A stretch of DNA of 56,500 nucleotides, from assembly GCF_000814475.1 (NCBI RefSeq), contig NZ_JSVC01000034.1, forward strand, positions 1 to 56,500, read 5' to 3'. Shown piece after piece: positions 4,313 through 14,005 of this stretch. How positions within the stretch are numbered: the stretch's first letter is position 1; the number at the start of each line of letters is the position of its first letter. The notes under the pieces are model-generated. The model was not told the DNA's origin, searched no databases, and saw only the letters and a program-made list of their open reading frames with translations. Source of the DNA: Flavihumibacter solisilvae (GTDB lineage Bacteria; Bacteroidota; Bacteroidia; Chitinophagales; Chitinophagaceae). Position numbers and translations under genes: made by a program.

Positions 4313-6025
4313 TTACAGACCGATTGGTTTATTTTTCTTTTCCTGCAACAACTGGTGCCTGTACAGCACAATATCTTTCTGCAACTTATTGTCATCAGGA
4401 ATGAGCAGCTTCAGCTCTGACAATATATGCGGGTTCTCTGGCGCAAGCGAGGAGATTATTTCAAATAAAATTGGACGAACCTCAACACTTATATCCACCA
4501 AAGCGTCATAGTCTATTTTAAGCACCTGCAGGAATTTTTCGCTGTTACGCTTATGGATGTTCGTTGAATAGAAAAGTTTGATCTCTTTGATGCGTTCTTT
4601 TTCGTCTCCGATATGGGAAAAATATCTGCCCAGGCAGGTAACGGCTTCTTTCCCTTCATTCCAGCCACGCAATAGTGTAGCCTGTGCCATCTCATGGTCT
4701 TCAAGCTTGTGACGATAGATCCGGGAAGCATCTAGGTATTGGTATTGCTCCTGTTGCCTCGTAGCTGCCTGCAGGTAATAATTGCGCGCATCTTCATATT
4801 CTTTTAATGATGCGTGCAGGTCGCCGACTTTTTCGGGGTTGTTGAGTTGTTTATACAAATCAATGGCGCGACGGGTCATGTCTGCTTTTGTATAACATTC
4901 TGCAGCTTTTTCCAGCTGGTTGTTCTTATGATAAAGCGCTGCGGCTTCTGCATAGAATTTCCCTGTTTCCAGCACCTCGGCTGCTCTATGCGGATTAGCC
5001 AGCAGTTTCAGGTAAATGAACGCTGCTTTTTCATATTGCTGCCGTTCGATCAAATCATTTGCTGCTTTATGGTATTGTTCCTGCAGCCTGGCCATTTCAT
5101 TATTTGCCAGGTAGACTGTTGCACCTGAGCCCGAACCCGTTCCCGAAAACAAAGAAAAATTCATCCAGCGCCTCGACAGTTCAAATGCTCCCGGTTGCGA
5201 TCCCCGTGACGCACCGCGGCTGTCGATCGGGATCGCGTATTTAAGCGCCTCTGCGGGATTGTCGCGAAATAGTTCCAGCAGTTTATCTACTTCCTTTTTA
5301 TTCCGCTCCTCCAGCATTTCCAGGTTAGCAGCAAGCTTTTGCATTGGCTTTTCCAGTCCTGATTGCGAAAACAGTTTCGCCATAAAGTTCCGGAAACGCG
5401 ACCTCGGGGCAGCTGCATCTGGCTTGCCTCCAAGTAGCAGTCGCAACAAATACAGTTTGATCTTCTCAAAGAAATTTAATGGTCCGGCAGTCAATGGTGC
5501 AGGGAACAACTCTTTATTCATCTGTTCGATCAGGTCGTCCGGCGATCTTTCTTCCACGATGAAAATTTTGATATCGCCGGGAATAAAGACAGTTTCTGCA
5601 GGCACAACAGATTCAACCTGCTCAACTGCGGGCAGGCCAACAATCTCTTCCCAAATGATTGGAGCCGGCAACTCTATGAGTCCGAGTTCGGGATGCATTA
5701 GGTGCCTTGCACCCCTGAATAGTTGCTGGTAGTCGGTCGATATTAAAATTGGCCGGAGTGCAGTGCAGGCGGGTATGAACAAAACATCCCCGGCAAGCTG
5801 GAATAATGGATGCCTCGTGTTAGGCAAATTTCCTTCGTTCATCACTACCAGGCACCCCCATACGCTGTTGGCAGTTTTCCCGGGCAGCGGGTATACAACT
5901 GTTTCCTTTAGTTGAATACCGGCCTGGAAAATATCCCTTAGCCAGGTGCTGGGTGAAGCGGCCTCGACCAGGAATGCCTTTACCGGCCAGGAATTATTTT
6001 GTACGGGTGCGATGGCCAGTTTCAT
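4313..6025 (-). CDS. TPR-containing component of MoxR-vWA-propeller ternary system
   Basis: A 570-residue cytoplasmic protein, last gene of the five-gene minus-strand operon. The N-terminal ~200 residues (MKLAIAPVQNNSWPVKAF onwards) form a domain I associate with the bpX-type accessory domains of MoxR-vWA-propeller systems, without being able to name which. A basic helical linker follows (about 200-290). Residues ~320-470 are TPR-like helical repeats (YEKAAFIYLKLL, YAEAAALYHKN, LEKAAECYTKA, RRAIDLYKQL, YEDARNYYLQA). The start at 6025 is preferred to 6052; it overlaps the upstream gene by 32 bases, indicating coupling. The TPR part probably binds partner proteins or the target. Confidence 0.65.
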   Translation of the reverse strand: MKLAIAPVQNNSWPVKAFLVEAASPSTWLRDIFQAGIQLKETVVYPLPGKTANSVWGCLVVMNEGNLPNTRHPLFQLAGDVLFIPACTALRPILISTDYQQLFRGARHLMHPELGLIELPAPIIWEEIVGLPAVEQVESVVPAETVFIPGDIKIFIVEERSPDDLIEQMNKELFPAPLTAGPLNFFEKIKLYLLRLLLGGKPDAAAPRSRFRNFMAKLFSQSGLEKPMQKLAANLEMLEERNKKEVDKLLELFRDNPAEALKYAIPIDSRGASRGSQPGAFELSRRWMNFSLFSGTGSGSGATVYLANNEMARLQEQYHKAANDLIERQQYEKAAFIYLKLLANPHRAAEVLETGKFYAEAAALYHKNNQLEKAAECYTKADMTRRAIDLYKQLNNPEKVGDLHASLKEYEDARNYYLQAATRQQEQYQYLDASRIYRHKLEDHEMAQATLLRGWNEGKEAVTCLGRYFSHIGDEKERIKEIKLFYSTNIHKRNSEKFLQVLKIDYDALVDISVEVRPILFEIISSLAPENPHILSELKLLIPDDNKLQKDIVLYRHQLLQEKKNKPIGL

Positions 6026-10980: not shown

Positions 10981-11011
10981 GATTAAAATAAAGAAAATCT
11001 TAACTGTGGGA

Positions 11012-11395
11012 ATGCACGACAAAGAGATTGAGTCTGTTTCAAAACTGGAACCATTTGAGCGGTATAAATACTTTATCAAACGCGTGGCAGACACGGAGGT
11101 TATGTACACTTTAGTCGATGAGAGCGGAGAGTTTGTATTAGCTGAATTAGGTGACAATGTGCTGTTGTCTTTATGGTCGGCTTCTGAGTTTGCTGCGTTA
11201 TGTATGATTGATAAGTGGAGTGGATTGACGGTCAAGGAAATTTCGCTCGGGGAGTTTGATGAGGAAATAATTGACGAGGCAGTGGAAGGTAATTGGCTAT
11301 TGAATATTTTTTCTGTAGGAGTAAAGTCTGGTTTTGTTGTCAATTTAGACGAGTTTACCAGGGATTTAAGTGAAGAATTGAAAAGATATTCATGA
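11012..11395 (+). CDS. DUF2750 family protein
   Basis: A 127-residue soluble protein resembling DUF2750: an N-terminal YKYFIKRVADTEVMYTL, then LSLWSASEFAALCMIDKW, and a C-terminal strand/acidic segment. Family function is unknown; members often occur among orphan immunity genes. The ATG at 11012 is preferred over a GTG two codons upstream. The stop overlaps the next start as ATGA, so the two proteins are translationally coupled. Confidence 0.72.
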   Translation: MHDKEIESVSKLEPFERYKYFIKRVADTEVMYTLVDESGEFVLAELGDNVLLSLWSASEFAALCMIDKWSGLTVKEISLGEFDEEIIDEAVEGNWLLNIFSVGVKSGFVVNLDEFTRDLSEELKRYS

Positions 11396-11811
11396 AACTT
11401 GAAAATAACTGGCGACAGAAATCTCTTGAAGCATTGGAGAAACAGGACTGGGGCGACACTGCGACTGCGCCTACTACTCTTGTGAAGCGCTGCATTGGAT
11501 TAAGCAAGATTCCAGTTGGTGCTTTCACTGCGGGTGACCTGCGACTTATGATTGCGCAACAATTTGGTTTGCCCTACCTGGTCCCCTTAGCAATTGAAGA
11601 ATTAGAGAAAGATCTCCTTGTTGAGACGGATTATTATGAGGGCGACTTATTAGCCAGCATTTTAGACGTCAACCTGGAATTCTGGAAGACTAACCAGAGC
11701 TACTGGTCAGAAGTTAACCGCCTGATCCGGGACAGGAAACAGGAACTGGGTCAGAAGAAAATTTCAACTGCCAAATTTGAGAGCTTAAATTTGACTGACG
11801 CGGAAACTTAA
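11392..11811 (+). CDS. CdiI-type contact-dependent inhibition immunity protein
   Basis: A 139-residue protein with the pattern of a CDI-system immunity family: KSLEALEKQDWGD near the start, LVKRCIGLSKIPVGAFTAGDLRLMIAQQ, then PLAIEELEKDLLVETDYYEGDLL and FWKT. Such proteins protect a cell from toxins delivered by contact. No toxin or delivery gene is adjacent: upstream is the coupled DUF2750 gene and downstream is the repeat-rich non-coding region. This is therefore an orphan immunity pair, either a relic or protection against neighbours' toxins. Confidence 0.75.
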   Translation: MKLENNWRQKSLEALEKQDWGDTATAPTTLVKRCIGLSKIPVGAFTAGDLRLMIAQQFGLPYLVPLAIEELEKDLLVETDYYEGDLLASILDVNLEFWKTNQSYWSEVNRLIRDRKQELGQKKISTAKFESLNLTDAET

Positions 11812-11944: not shown

Positions 11945-12043
11945 CAGAAATTTCTCTCAGTCGTGCTTTACTTTTCTCCCAGTTTTGCTTCACATTCCTA
12001 GTACTTTTCTAGCACTTTCCTCTAGCTTTTCTCTTGCGTTCAC
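11945..12043 (+). repeat. array A: nine degenerate 11-bp units
   Basis: Cutting the sequence every 11 bases from 11945 gives units such as TTTACTTTTCT, CCCAGTTTTGC, TTCACATTCCT, AGTACTTTTCT, AGCACTTTCCT and CTAGCTTTTCT, all on a pattern near AGCACTTTTCT. No base is inserted or lost across nine units although few units are identical. The period is not a multiple of three and no frame through it looks coding. Confidence 0.7.
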
Positions 12044-12332
12044 AGCAAATTGACGGCAAATTGGCCTTGCTTTCACCTTACTATAACCGTCATTTGAATT
12101 CCGGGGGTTTTTTTGGAGACGGAGGTTTTGAGATGGGAGGAGCAAAGTTGGCTATACATCCTGTCACTTAGAAATTTTTGTCAGAATCGTACCAAAGTCC
12201 GGAATAATGGGCGCGGGATATGGCAGAATTGGTCATTACCTTTTCTCGCTACTCGAAGTATTCGAACCCCGAGACGGTTACTATGGCTTGTTGGGGAAGT
12301 GCAGCATGGCGGGAAGGCCCTGAGTGCTGCGT

Positions 12333-12575
12333 CTACTCCCGTGCCAGCAGTTCCTGCAATTGCTGGTCGACTACCGACTGTGGGCCAATTTTAGTGATCC
12401 GAAACACGCTGGTGAGTTTGTGCAGCTGCCTGTCGCTCAGTGGTTTTGTTCCTTTGATTGCCCTGCTGATGGCGCCTTTCGGGAAGGCACAGAAGTGGTC
12501 CAGCTTGGACAGGTTAAATACCTGGGCGTCAAGCACAAACTGGAGTATTGGTGGGAGCGGTGTTGTCATGAGCAC
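12333..12575 (-). CDS. small helix-turn-helix-like protein
   Basis: An 80-residue protein with the spacing of a compact lambda-repressor/Cro-like fold: FNLSKLDHFCAFPKGAISRAI followed by KGTKPLSDRQLHKLTSVF, where AISRAIKG would be the recognition segment. It lies 47 bases downstream of the 117-residue minus-strand gene and is probably co-transcribed. It sits inside the repeat-rich region and could regulate its neighbours, which is inference. Overlapping plus-strand frames are not convincing. Confidence 0.5.
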   Translation of the reverse strand: MLMTTPLPPILQFVLDAQVFNLSKLDHFCAFPKGAISRAIKGTKPLSDRQLHKLTSVFRITKIGPQSVVDQQLQELLARE

Positions 12576-12622
12576 AAGGTAAAAAGGGGCTCGATTTTAC
12601 GCAACCGTGTTTTAACGGTATT

Positions 12623-12976
12623 TCAGGTTTTTTCAATCCATCCCTTCTGGGTGTCTAAGATGATCGGGTAAAGTGAATAGTCGAACCAATCGCAAAACAT
12701 TTTGAATGTTCTCTTTTTGGGCCACATCGTTTCGTCGATGATCCAGTCGAATAACTCTTCTTCGAATAACTCGAAGAAGTTCTTCTTCAGCCATTTTTCC
12801 ATTTCTGCCTTGTTTCCGTAGGCAGGAGCCAGATAAACGTTAGTTTCCATGTCGTCGTCCTTGAGATCCAGTCCAGGGGCGCCCGCCACAACCCAGTCTT
12901 TGAAAGGTTGCTTTGGCCGTAGGACAATGGCAGAGCGTTTCAAATGTGCAAAGTTGTCGTCTAACATAACCGGCAA
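12623..12976 (-). CDS. conserved hypothetical protein of Bacteroidota type
   Basis: A 117-residue acidic protein. Characteristic segments are LKRSAIVLRPKQPFKDWV, EEELFDWIIDETMWPKKRT and FKMFCDWFDYSLYPIILD. From memory this pattern (Trp-rich core, WPK.RT, FDW motif) recurs in small uncharacterised proteins of the phylum, but no function is known to me. No signal peptide or membrane segment. It heads a two-gene minus-strand unit with the HTH-like gene at 12333-12575. Confidence 0.6.
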   Translation of the reverse strand: MPVMLDDNFAHLKRSAIVLRPKQPFKDWVVAGAPGLDLKDDDMETNVYLAPAYGNKAEMEKWLKKNFFELFEEELFDWIIDETMWPKKRTFKMFCDWFDYSLYPIILDTQKGWIEKT

Positions 12977-13244
12977 TATACAAACTGGTCATTAAACCGA
13001 GGCACGTTGTGCAGGCCAGTATGTAACCTTCCATTTTCGCTATAGTATAGCCGAAATCTGGCGTTTTCGGGTTGACGTGGCCCTTGGCTCATTTGCGCGG
13101 TCCGAGGGCAACCACGAGGCTTAAAATGGGCATGGCGGCGCTTTTTGTCGGTTGTGTGCAGGAGGTCGATAGGCTGGGCCACCGGCCGTATGGACTGCAG
13201 ATTATGGTCATTCGGGTATATACAGGTAGCCATTCATGCAAATT

Positions 13245-13321
13245 TCACTACTAAGTCACTGGTGAATCACTAGTGTCGGCACTAAGGTTTCACTAGTCGT
13301 TTACTGGTGTCTGACATATGT
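13245..13321 (+). repeat. array B: seven degenerate 11-bp units
   Basis: Units include TCACTACTAAG, TCACTGGTGAA, TCACTAGTGTC, GGCACTAAGGT and TTCACTAGTCG, with consensus close to TCACTAGTGNN. The period is 11 with one single-base phase shift in the middle. CACTAGTG is itself nearly palindromic. Confidence 0.65.
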
Positions 13322-13506
13322 CGGAAGCACTTTTGACTGCTCTTCTAAGCTTCTTCATTGCTTTATGAAAGGTTCATCTACTGGTTAGGGGTTGGCGGCG
13401 AATTCCTGGTTATCACTTCAGTCATTCATGCCACCCAGGGAATGTTATTCACGCCATTTTCTCCGGGCGAGCTATGGTTATTCTCCGCAAATCCTCCCTG
13501 CTCAGT

Positions 13507-13594
13507 AGCACTTTTCCAGCACTTTTCCAGCACGTTTGTTGCGCTTTTCTCTGGCTCTCCCGGCACTCTCCCGGCTCTTTCCCAGCACTCAGGC
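13507..13594 (+). repeat. array C: eight degenerate 11-bp units
   Basis: Exact 11-base phasing: AGCACTTTTCC twice, then AGCACGTTTGT, TGCGCTTTTCT, CTGGCTCTCCC, GGCACTCTCCC, GGCTCTTTCCC, AGCACTCAGGC. The consensus AGCACTTTTCC nearly equals that of array A, 1.5 kb away. Confidence 0.75.
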
Positions 13595-13674
13595 CAGGTT
13601 CACATGGTGTAAGCAACCTGGGAAAAGAACCGGCGTATTCCAGGTGCGGTATGTATTGAATTAATTGAAAAAAA

Positions 13675-13861
13675 CGTGTCGTTCACGCATCCCTGTGTAT
13701 GTCGTTCATGCATTTCTGTGGCTTCCGGCATGCTTCTGGGACGCTTGTTTCTGGCTTCCAGGATGCTTCCAACATGCTTCCGAGATACTTTTCGGATGCT
13801 TTTTTTATGCTCCGTTTATTCTTATAGACGGCTCTTTCACGGCTTTGTGAAGGCTTCCATC
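13675..13861 (+). repeat. array D: about seventeen degenerate 11-bp units
   Basis: The longest array. From 13675 each 11-base cut gives a related unit, for example TGGCTTCCGGC, ATGCTTCTGGG, ACGCTTGTTTC, TGGCTTCCAGG, ATGCTTCCAAC, ATGCTTCCGAG, ATACTTTTCGG, ATGCTTTTTTT, CGGCTCTTTCA and AGGCTTCCATC. The phase is kept for about 187 bases; consensus ATGCTTCCNGG. Confidence 0.75.
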
Positions 13862-13907
13862 CAGGACAATGATATGCAAAAGGAAAATGATTTCCAGGCG
13901 CTATTTC

Positions 13908-13957
13908 ATAATCCGATAAAAAAAGGGAATAATCCGATTAAAAGGCGGAATAATCCG
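13908..13957 (+). repeat. three AATAATCCG-type direct repeats at 21-bp spacing
   Basis: ATAATCCG begins at 13908, 13929 and 13950, exactly 21 bases apart. The third copy continues as TCCGTTTG. Spacing equals two helical turns and matches the geometry of LytTR-type binding sites. The sensor kinase gene starts about 415 bases downstream. Confidence 0.6.
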
Positions 13958-14005
13958 TTTGCCACTCCTGGAATGTACCGTTCAATACGAGAATGTTGAA
14001 ACGCT

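Follow-up and report, generated by a model that had tools for sequence, protein, structure and literature searches.

Small dispersed elements with a strict 11-bp internal spacing in Flavihumibacter solisilvae and related bacteria

At least three of four 11-bp-period arrays in the genome of Flavihumibacter solisilvae form the body of short intergenic elements, about 100-300 bp long, that are scattered through the genome. These elements carry conserved ends and keep a strict 11-bp spacing that changes mostly by whole units, and in two families the core of the unit is conserved relative to its spacer. We tentatively read the arrays, with somewhat less than even confidence, as a phased row of docking sites for a putative protein, one site per helical turn. 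Such a protein may bind and polymerise on the DNA, and may have a role in chromosome organisation or in insulation between genes.

The DNA examined, called the window hereafter, comprises positions 1-56,500 of contig NZ_JSVC01000034.1 (GCF_000814475.1), and all numbering refers to this whole stretch. A first-pass annotation had reported four arrays of 11-bp period within 11945-13861, and they are confirmed: the four highest lag-11 peaks of the 56.5 kb are these arrays, with 52, 48, 46 and 39 matches in 77-base windows. The comparison of lag-11 autocorrelation with shuffled sequence that it had proposed gave identities of 0.49, 0.52, 0.68 and 0.50 for arrays 1 to 4 (z 3.6, 4.8, 7.1 and 6.7), against means of 0.25-0.31 and maxima of 0.41-0.48 in 2000 dinucleotide shuffles per array, the observed value exceeding every shuffle in all four. 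Array 2 is the weakest, with 39 matches of 77 against 38 at the best non-array lag (lags 7-39, leaving aside 11, 22 and 33), so that its margin is slight; at a cut-off of 36/66, arrays 1, 3 and 4 pass and array 2 fails. With that cut-off and lags from 5 to 40, the window shows three peaks at lag 11 and another three at lag 22, its double, and no remaining lag yields more than one; 200 kb of the same genome not picked for arrays contain one lag-11 array. Three of the four window arrays, perhaps all four, share one orientation. The limits first given to them need revision: the arrays are real, but arrays 2, 3 and 4 sit inside larger elements at 13206-13384, 13416-13590 and 13678-13957.

The most complete of these is element 4 (family A, minus strand, 13678..13957), formed by array 4, a right end and a left module. 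Its copies on contigs C12, C5 and C7 are about 79% identical over about 290-300 bp (13669-13960 compared), and its array also recurs on C1 (74%). The 11-bp units (13712..13858, minus strand) are made of a GAAGC core and six variable bases, with divergence between copies depending on phase 11 (p=0.0005). The right-end motif (13678..13711, minus strand) is GCATGAACGAC followed by GCGTGAACGAC at 23-bp spacing, with zero mismatches to the pattern described below and a match to the right-end model (R1) at E 6.3e-16. The left module (13904..13957, minus strand) holds CGGATTATTCC-type repeats about 21 bp apart (TRF period 21); its order is kept in C12, C5 and C7, it is missing from C1, and a GATTATTAC pair resembling it occurs in five of the seven copies of the congeners G012 and G013. 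Element 3 (family B, minus strand, 13416..13590) joins array 3 to a right end and has copies on C11, C75 and C45, whose arrays are 73-83% identical. Its right-end motif, GCGTGAATAAC plus GCATGAATGAC at 23-bp spacing (13421..13454, minus strand), has one mismatch to the pattern, and the model matches at 13411-13496 (E 1.9e-12). Element 2 (family D, minus strand, 13206..13384) was delimited by alignment with five other copies, on C2, C12, C5 and C75 (two), and comprises array 2 and a degenerate right end (13206-13238) with a pair motif at 22-bp spacing; by eye its left edge is sharp. Two further family D copies lie on C20 and at C12:180951.

Array 1 (11945..12043, no strand assigned) forms a family of its own, without a recognised conserved end. 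It has one weak relative in the same genome, at C2:222081-222154 (E 1.9e-6), and a near-perfect CTCTTACTTTC array at this locus runs into the end of contig C2 and is probably young. Immediately before array 1 stand two genes of the DUF2750 and CdiI_3 immunity types with a 4-base overlap (11006-11811). Further 11-bp arrays, one of them near-perfect, are found elsewhere in the genome, and a second cluster of several differing 11-bp arrays within about 2 kb, like that of the window, occurs at L045:8570-10760 (C11:116.5-118.8 kb). An integron-like cassette array was considered and dropped, most other copies being single and their flanking genes unrelated.

The right end ties the elements together within the genus. 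On the minus strand of the window, the body enters it in register and GCRTGAAYGAC follows twice, about 23 bp apart. With at most one mismatch, this pair has 11 matches in the F. solisilvae genome and none for the control, and of the 98 relatives searched G012 alone has it (two matches). A sequence model built from 17 copies, with the best 150 of 899 first-look candidates scored, finds at least 24 matches in the same genome (E up to 0.05). At the model matches inspected, 11-bp units stand before the pair, some copies having two or three units only, and a T-rich run lies past the right end in many copies. Model matches occur in eight of the 15 genomes searched, F. solisilvae included, with clear copies in three of the 14 congeners, namely G012 (four), G013 (three) and G001 (three); single weak matches in G007, G011, G009 and G004 were left uncounted. 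A stricter search of 147 genomes of the family, limited to the best 29 candidates each among the matches listed, returned F. solisilvae alone, so that the right end was not found outside the genus in a search that was not exhaustive.

A scan of the whole collection for the pair gave 14 stretches, with about two expected by chance under uniform composition. They were rejected as instances of the same element, several of them occurring in unrelated bacteria as tandem repeats with a period of about 23 bp, and no clear lag-11 array stands upstream of the 14 (lag-11 identity 0.18-0.36). Among the repeats encountered, tandem arrays of about 22-23 bp with GCGYGAATGAC resemble the right end and are devoid of a clear 11-bp body (L175:4040-4200, L176:2040-2250, L170:4440-4560, L180:3760-3890); their hosts are two Anaerolineae records, where they lie inside long ORFs and look iteron-like, and two places of one Bacteroidaceae MAG. 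A phage origin was rejected as well, the right-end pattern having no exact match in viral contigs.

Unit length had been described as strict and unit sequence as loose, and the comparison of copies upholds this. In matched copies of two families with homologous flanks, the arrays show 97 substitutions and no indel other than of 11 bp, against 157 and 10 in the flanks (parsimony, p=0.015), a contrast between copies of common ancestry that are not independent. With all copies of three array sets, the count becomes 210 substitutions and one non-11 indel against the same 157 and 10 (p=0.003), which supports a constraint on spacing, bearing in mind that the flanks are more diverged than the arrays and that misalignment may inflate their indels. 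The array of family A has no indel for 78 parsimony substitutions in five copies, and in family D about 239 estimated substitutions are accompanied by two deletions, one of 11 bp and one of 1 bp; the arrays of G001 contain a 2-base gap that falls outside the indel count. The further claim that the pattern speaks against recent slippage was too strong: the two 11-bp events in the indel count are whole units, and whole-unit changes of 11 and 33 bp occur between copies.

These gains and losses bring in the main rival to docking, doubtful as a whole and yet a serious possibility. Selfish or neutral repeats would be moved in trans by some transposase, their body would be a minisatellite with unit slippage, and 11 bp would tell of origin, not of function. 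Changes of copy number by whole units and the near-perfect arrays agree with such a history, as do the sharp edges of the dispersed copies and the existence of shortened ones (C11a, close behind a stop codon; C11b, with few units; C12:180951). Non-11 indels are nevertheless few per substitution, and conservation depends on phase in two families.

To assess this dependence, each period from 5 to 23 was tested for a relation between phase and the divergence of copies. Family A gave p=0.0005 at period 11, with 22 the only other period below 0.05 (0.018). The body of the elements of G028, a genome of another genus, gave p=0.019 at 11 and at least 0.05 at all other periods (0.049 for the whole element). 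Dependence on phase 11 was not significant in family B (0.074), G012/G013 (0.10) or family D (0.92). In family A and G028, a 5-bp core per unit is conserved between copies at period 11; in G028, GA and GCT are almost invariant in four successive units, with A or T between them, and several bases before the next unit vary. A conserved core has strong support in one family and fair support in a second; for the remaining three the case is undecided or absent.

Going further, the design recurs outside the genus. Three GAAGC cores at 11-bp spacing, with at most one mismatch, match 38 times in the F. solisilvae genome, many matches overlapping in one array, and never for the reversed control. The exact pattern is found in nine of 59 genomes, F. 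solisilvae included; the reversed control has three hits in G001 and one each in G005 and G009, so that single matches are weak, and the match in G007 resembles ordinary sequence. G028 has 17 matches and none for the control. Its elements have inverted ends, TTGCTAAAAAA ... TTTTTTAGCA, unrelated to those of the window's genus, and this end pattern is absent from G000, G001, G012, G013 and the control. All 35 pattern hits in G028, at 19 places, span 103 bp although 81-111 were allowed, and 15 distinct sequences align without internal gap at 76% mean identity. The corresponding model adds two longer full copies, of which one measured 115 bp (+12, not +11), and about eight partial matches, and two arrays whose ends are reversed measure 138 and 139 bp. 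It matches in four of 39 genomes, counting G028 itself; the match in G021 is no array, and that in G008 lies at a place already known from the GAAGC search. A third genus, represented by G020, contributes four arrays built from ACATGCTTTAA-type units, which carry their own conserved ends. Across the three genera the unit cores read GAAGC, GA[AT]GC and CATGC.

For a repeat of selfish or neutral nature, the inverted ends of G028 would be natural, and so would the lack of matches to G028-type ends in two mates of its genus. An identical period in three genera with unrelated ends would not.

Period spectra were drawn at a cut-off of 31/55 from samples not chosen for arrays unless stated. The 200 kb of F. 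solisilvae have one lag-11 peak and no lag that stands out, and 195 kb of G012 and G007 have four peaks at lag 7 and three at lag 11. In 509 kb from other genera of the family, G028 included, 18 peaks fall at lag 7 and four at lag 11; leaving aside multiples of 3, 7 and 11, no other lag has more than three. The 79 kb from other families of the order show no peak at lags 7 and 11. The search in relatives that had been suggested thus finds such arrays, with eight lag-11 peaks in stretches of seven congeners picked for earlier hits, but 79.5 kb sampled from four congeners (G002, G005, G013 and G014) had no peak at lag 7 or 11. Among periods that three does not divide, 7 is the most frequent in the other genera of the family. 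The 7-bp tandem arrays (L092:436-533 and 4721-4846 and L094:3874-4156 in G012; L104:2197-2362 in G018) include a perfect one (CTGACTT about 12 times) and some made of two inverted arms. That 7-bp arrays exist in the same bacterial family fits the selfish repeat.

The genomic surroundings were considered for 17 of 24 F. solisilvae copies (ORFs of at least 110 aa) and 14 of 15 G028 copies (ORFs of at least 90 aa, one copy without upstream ORF being dropped). Among these 31 copies, 12 lie between convergent genes against eight of 74 background gaps (p 0.002), and three between divergent genes against 24 of 74 (p 0.015). An earlier count with shorter ORFs, on 26 copies of the genus of which 24 had both neighbours, gave seven convergent and seven divergent and was less clear, so the preference for convergent genes is provisional. 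Eleven of 20 flanking proteins, taken from the window and eight other loci of its genome, have a family above cut-off, those of the window including a CdiI_3 immunity protein and a DUF2750 protein. The loci have no family in common, apart from LytTR at two of them, where LytTR-domain proteins adjoin element copies (L133:949-1269, L158:1010-1414). LytTR proteins recognise pairs of direct repeats separated by about two helical turns, an arrangement that the right-end pair resembles; the spacing is suggestive of a LytTR binding site and offers a lead only. The 20 proteins scanned include no transposase, and the genome has no IS21 IstB (E up to 1e-10), which weighs against repeats moved by a transposase. 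IS21-like ends were accordingly dropped, five of 14 control genomes having an IstB match.

On other aspects, transcription was considered. Coding had been excluded on the ground that the period is not a multiple of three; this argument is insufficient alone, but stops stand in most frames of most copies, and no reading frame is open in all 17 copies examined. A structured RNA, also put forward at first, finds no backing: folding z-scores of 17 copies are around zero on both strands, with the exception of some family A copies (z below -2.5), both-sided change affects two of 23 predicted pairs in G028, and Rfam 15 has no match on elements in 10 loci of the window's genus, its hits there being a tRNA and two sub-threshold ones elsewhere. 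No evidence for diversity generation, likewise put forward at first, was encountered. We consider it improbable that the elements are multi-copy genes whose product is an unstructured small RNA with an 11-nt register, transcribed from a promoter next to the left module in the direction of the right end. An A-form helix completes one turn in about 11 bp, and a promoter-like pair (CTG, 20 bp, TATCATTG; 13867..13897, minus strand) lies between the left module and the array of element 4. A similar TTG-N18/20-TATnAT-like arrangement is visible by eye in C12, C5, C7 and the module-bearing copies of G012 and G013, and, judged by the Bacteroidota promoter consensus, the pair is a candidate promoter and a weak lead. 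The similar spacing of this pair and the T-rich run beyond the right end of many copies would suit a transcript. The folds and Rfam lend it nothing, several copies are without the left part, the ends of G028 are inverted, and four G028 copies follow apparent intrinsic terminators (by eye).

Curved DNA had been proposed too. In all 17 copies examined, curvature exceeds that of dinucleotide shuffles; it is weak, however, in the F. solisilvae genome, and the excess is partly automatic, because any 11-periodic sequence gains curvature. In a wedge model with assumed angles, strong curvature is seen in two copies each of G012 and G001 (z -4.3 to -8.8), with z of -0.1 to -2.8 in the own genome and a mean z of -1.4 in G028 (mononucleotide shuffles). 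AA dinucleotides are phased at 11 bp: at phases 5-7 their frequency is 0.31-0.32, at phases 0-3 it is 0.03-0.04 (eight-group mean, in register with the right end). A periodicity of 10-11 bp among the A-tracts of bacterial genomes is known (PMC3940949). That intrinsic curvature, alone or together with a general nucleoid protein (HU, for example), would account for the arrays is to us very improbable: the AA phasing and the four strongly curved copies favour it, but GAAGC, the conserved core, does not form an A-tract, and the weak values in F. solisilvae and G028 add to the partly automatic excess.

Docking at one site per turn is the best explanation because it accounts for both the spacing and the cores. 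The body of the element would present a short binding core at each 11-bp step, roughly once per helical turn; copies of a putative DNA-binding protein would sit on neighbouring cores, forming a polymer or wrapping the DNA, and the family-specific ends might nucleate or bound the protein complex. The recurrence of the design in three genera, with unrelated ends and differing cores, argues for such docking, as do the uniform 103-bp span of the G028 pattern hits, the phasing of AA dinucleotides and the provisional preference for convergent genes. The phased protein-binding platform of the first-pass annotation is therefore retained in part, with the constraint on spacing and the phased core of family A in its favour and no partner protein identified, nor a common neighbour gene, among the proteins flanking the elements. 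Against docking, the divergence of units between families is too great for one sequence-specific protein to read them all, and the length lock of G028 is not absolute, given its 115-bp, 138/139-bp and partial copies. If a polymerising protein does exist, the elements would represent a new way of organising bacterial chromosomes.

No named element and no report of such 11-bp arrays was found among the matches listed in the open-access literature, which does not prove their absence. REP/BIME and MITEs are dispersed short intergenic repeats, and the elements resemble them in their many short intergenic copies and in the inverted ends of G028. They differ from them by an 11-bp phased interior and by the lack of a hairpin body in most copies: terminal inverted repeats are present in G028 and direct pairs in the window's genus, and the 17 copies folded give no consistent signal of REP/BIME-type palindromic hairpin units. 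The TAACTGA repeats of PMC4679880 are different, with a 7-base unit.

The nearest precedent for an 11-bp docking row is parC of plasmid R1, whose 11-bp direct repeats are bound by ParR in complexes that form higher-order structures (PMC9426499). That locus lies on a plasmid, upstream of parM, whereas the present elements have many chromosomal copies; no ParM-type ATPase or ribbon-helix-helix gene occurs among the 20 flanking proteins, so membership of the parC/ParR systems fails. A more ambitious reading, which we hold to be unlikely, would see a class of chromosomal docking array not described before in this bacterial family, parC-like, with about 3-24 dispersed, length-locked platforms in each lineage that possesses it. 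Every helical turn would offer one binding core, a dedicated polymerising protein would read the rapidly changing core and co-evolve with it, and the arrays would help to organise the chromosome or to keep convergent genes apart.

Closest in kind are the constant-size satellites described by Subirana and Messeguer (PMC8161180, with a survey by the same authors in PMC6749651). These bacterial tandem repeats of constant size (20-21 and 52 nt) and variable sequence are called enigmatic, of function not known, and a polymerising protein or RNA is proposed for them. The elements share with them a fixed length not divisible by three, a sequence that differs by species or family and the presence of several families per genome. 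They differ in size, their period being 11 and their modules of 21- and about 23-bp spacing holding only two or three copies, in units that are often very degenerate, and in arrays that sit inside elements with conserved ends. Being compact and present many times per genome, with defined ends and a core that can be measured, these elements make the purpose of such spacing testable.
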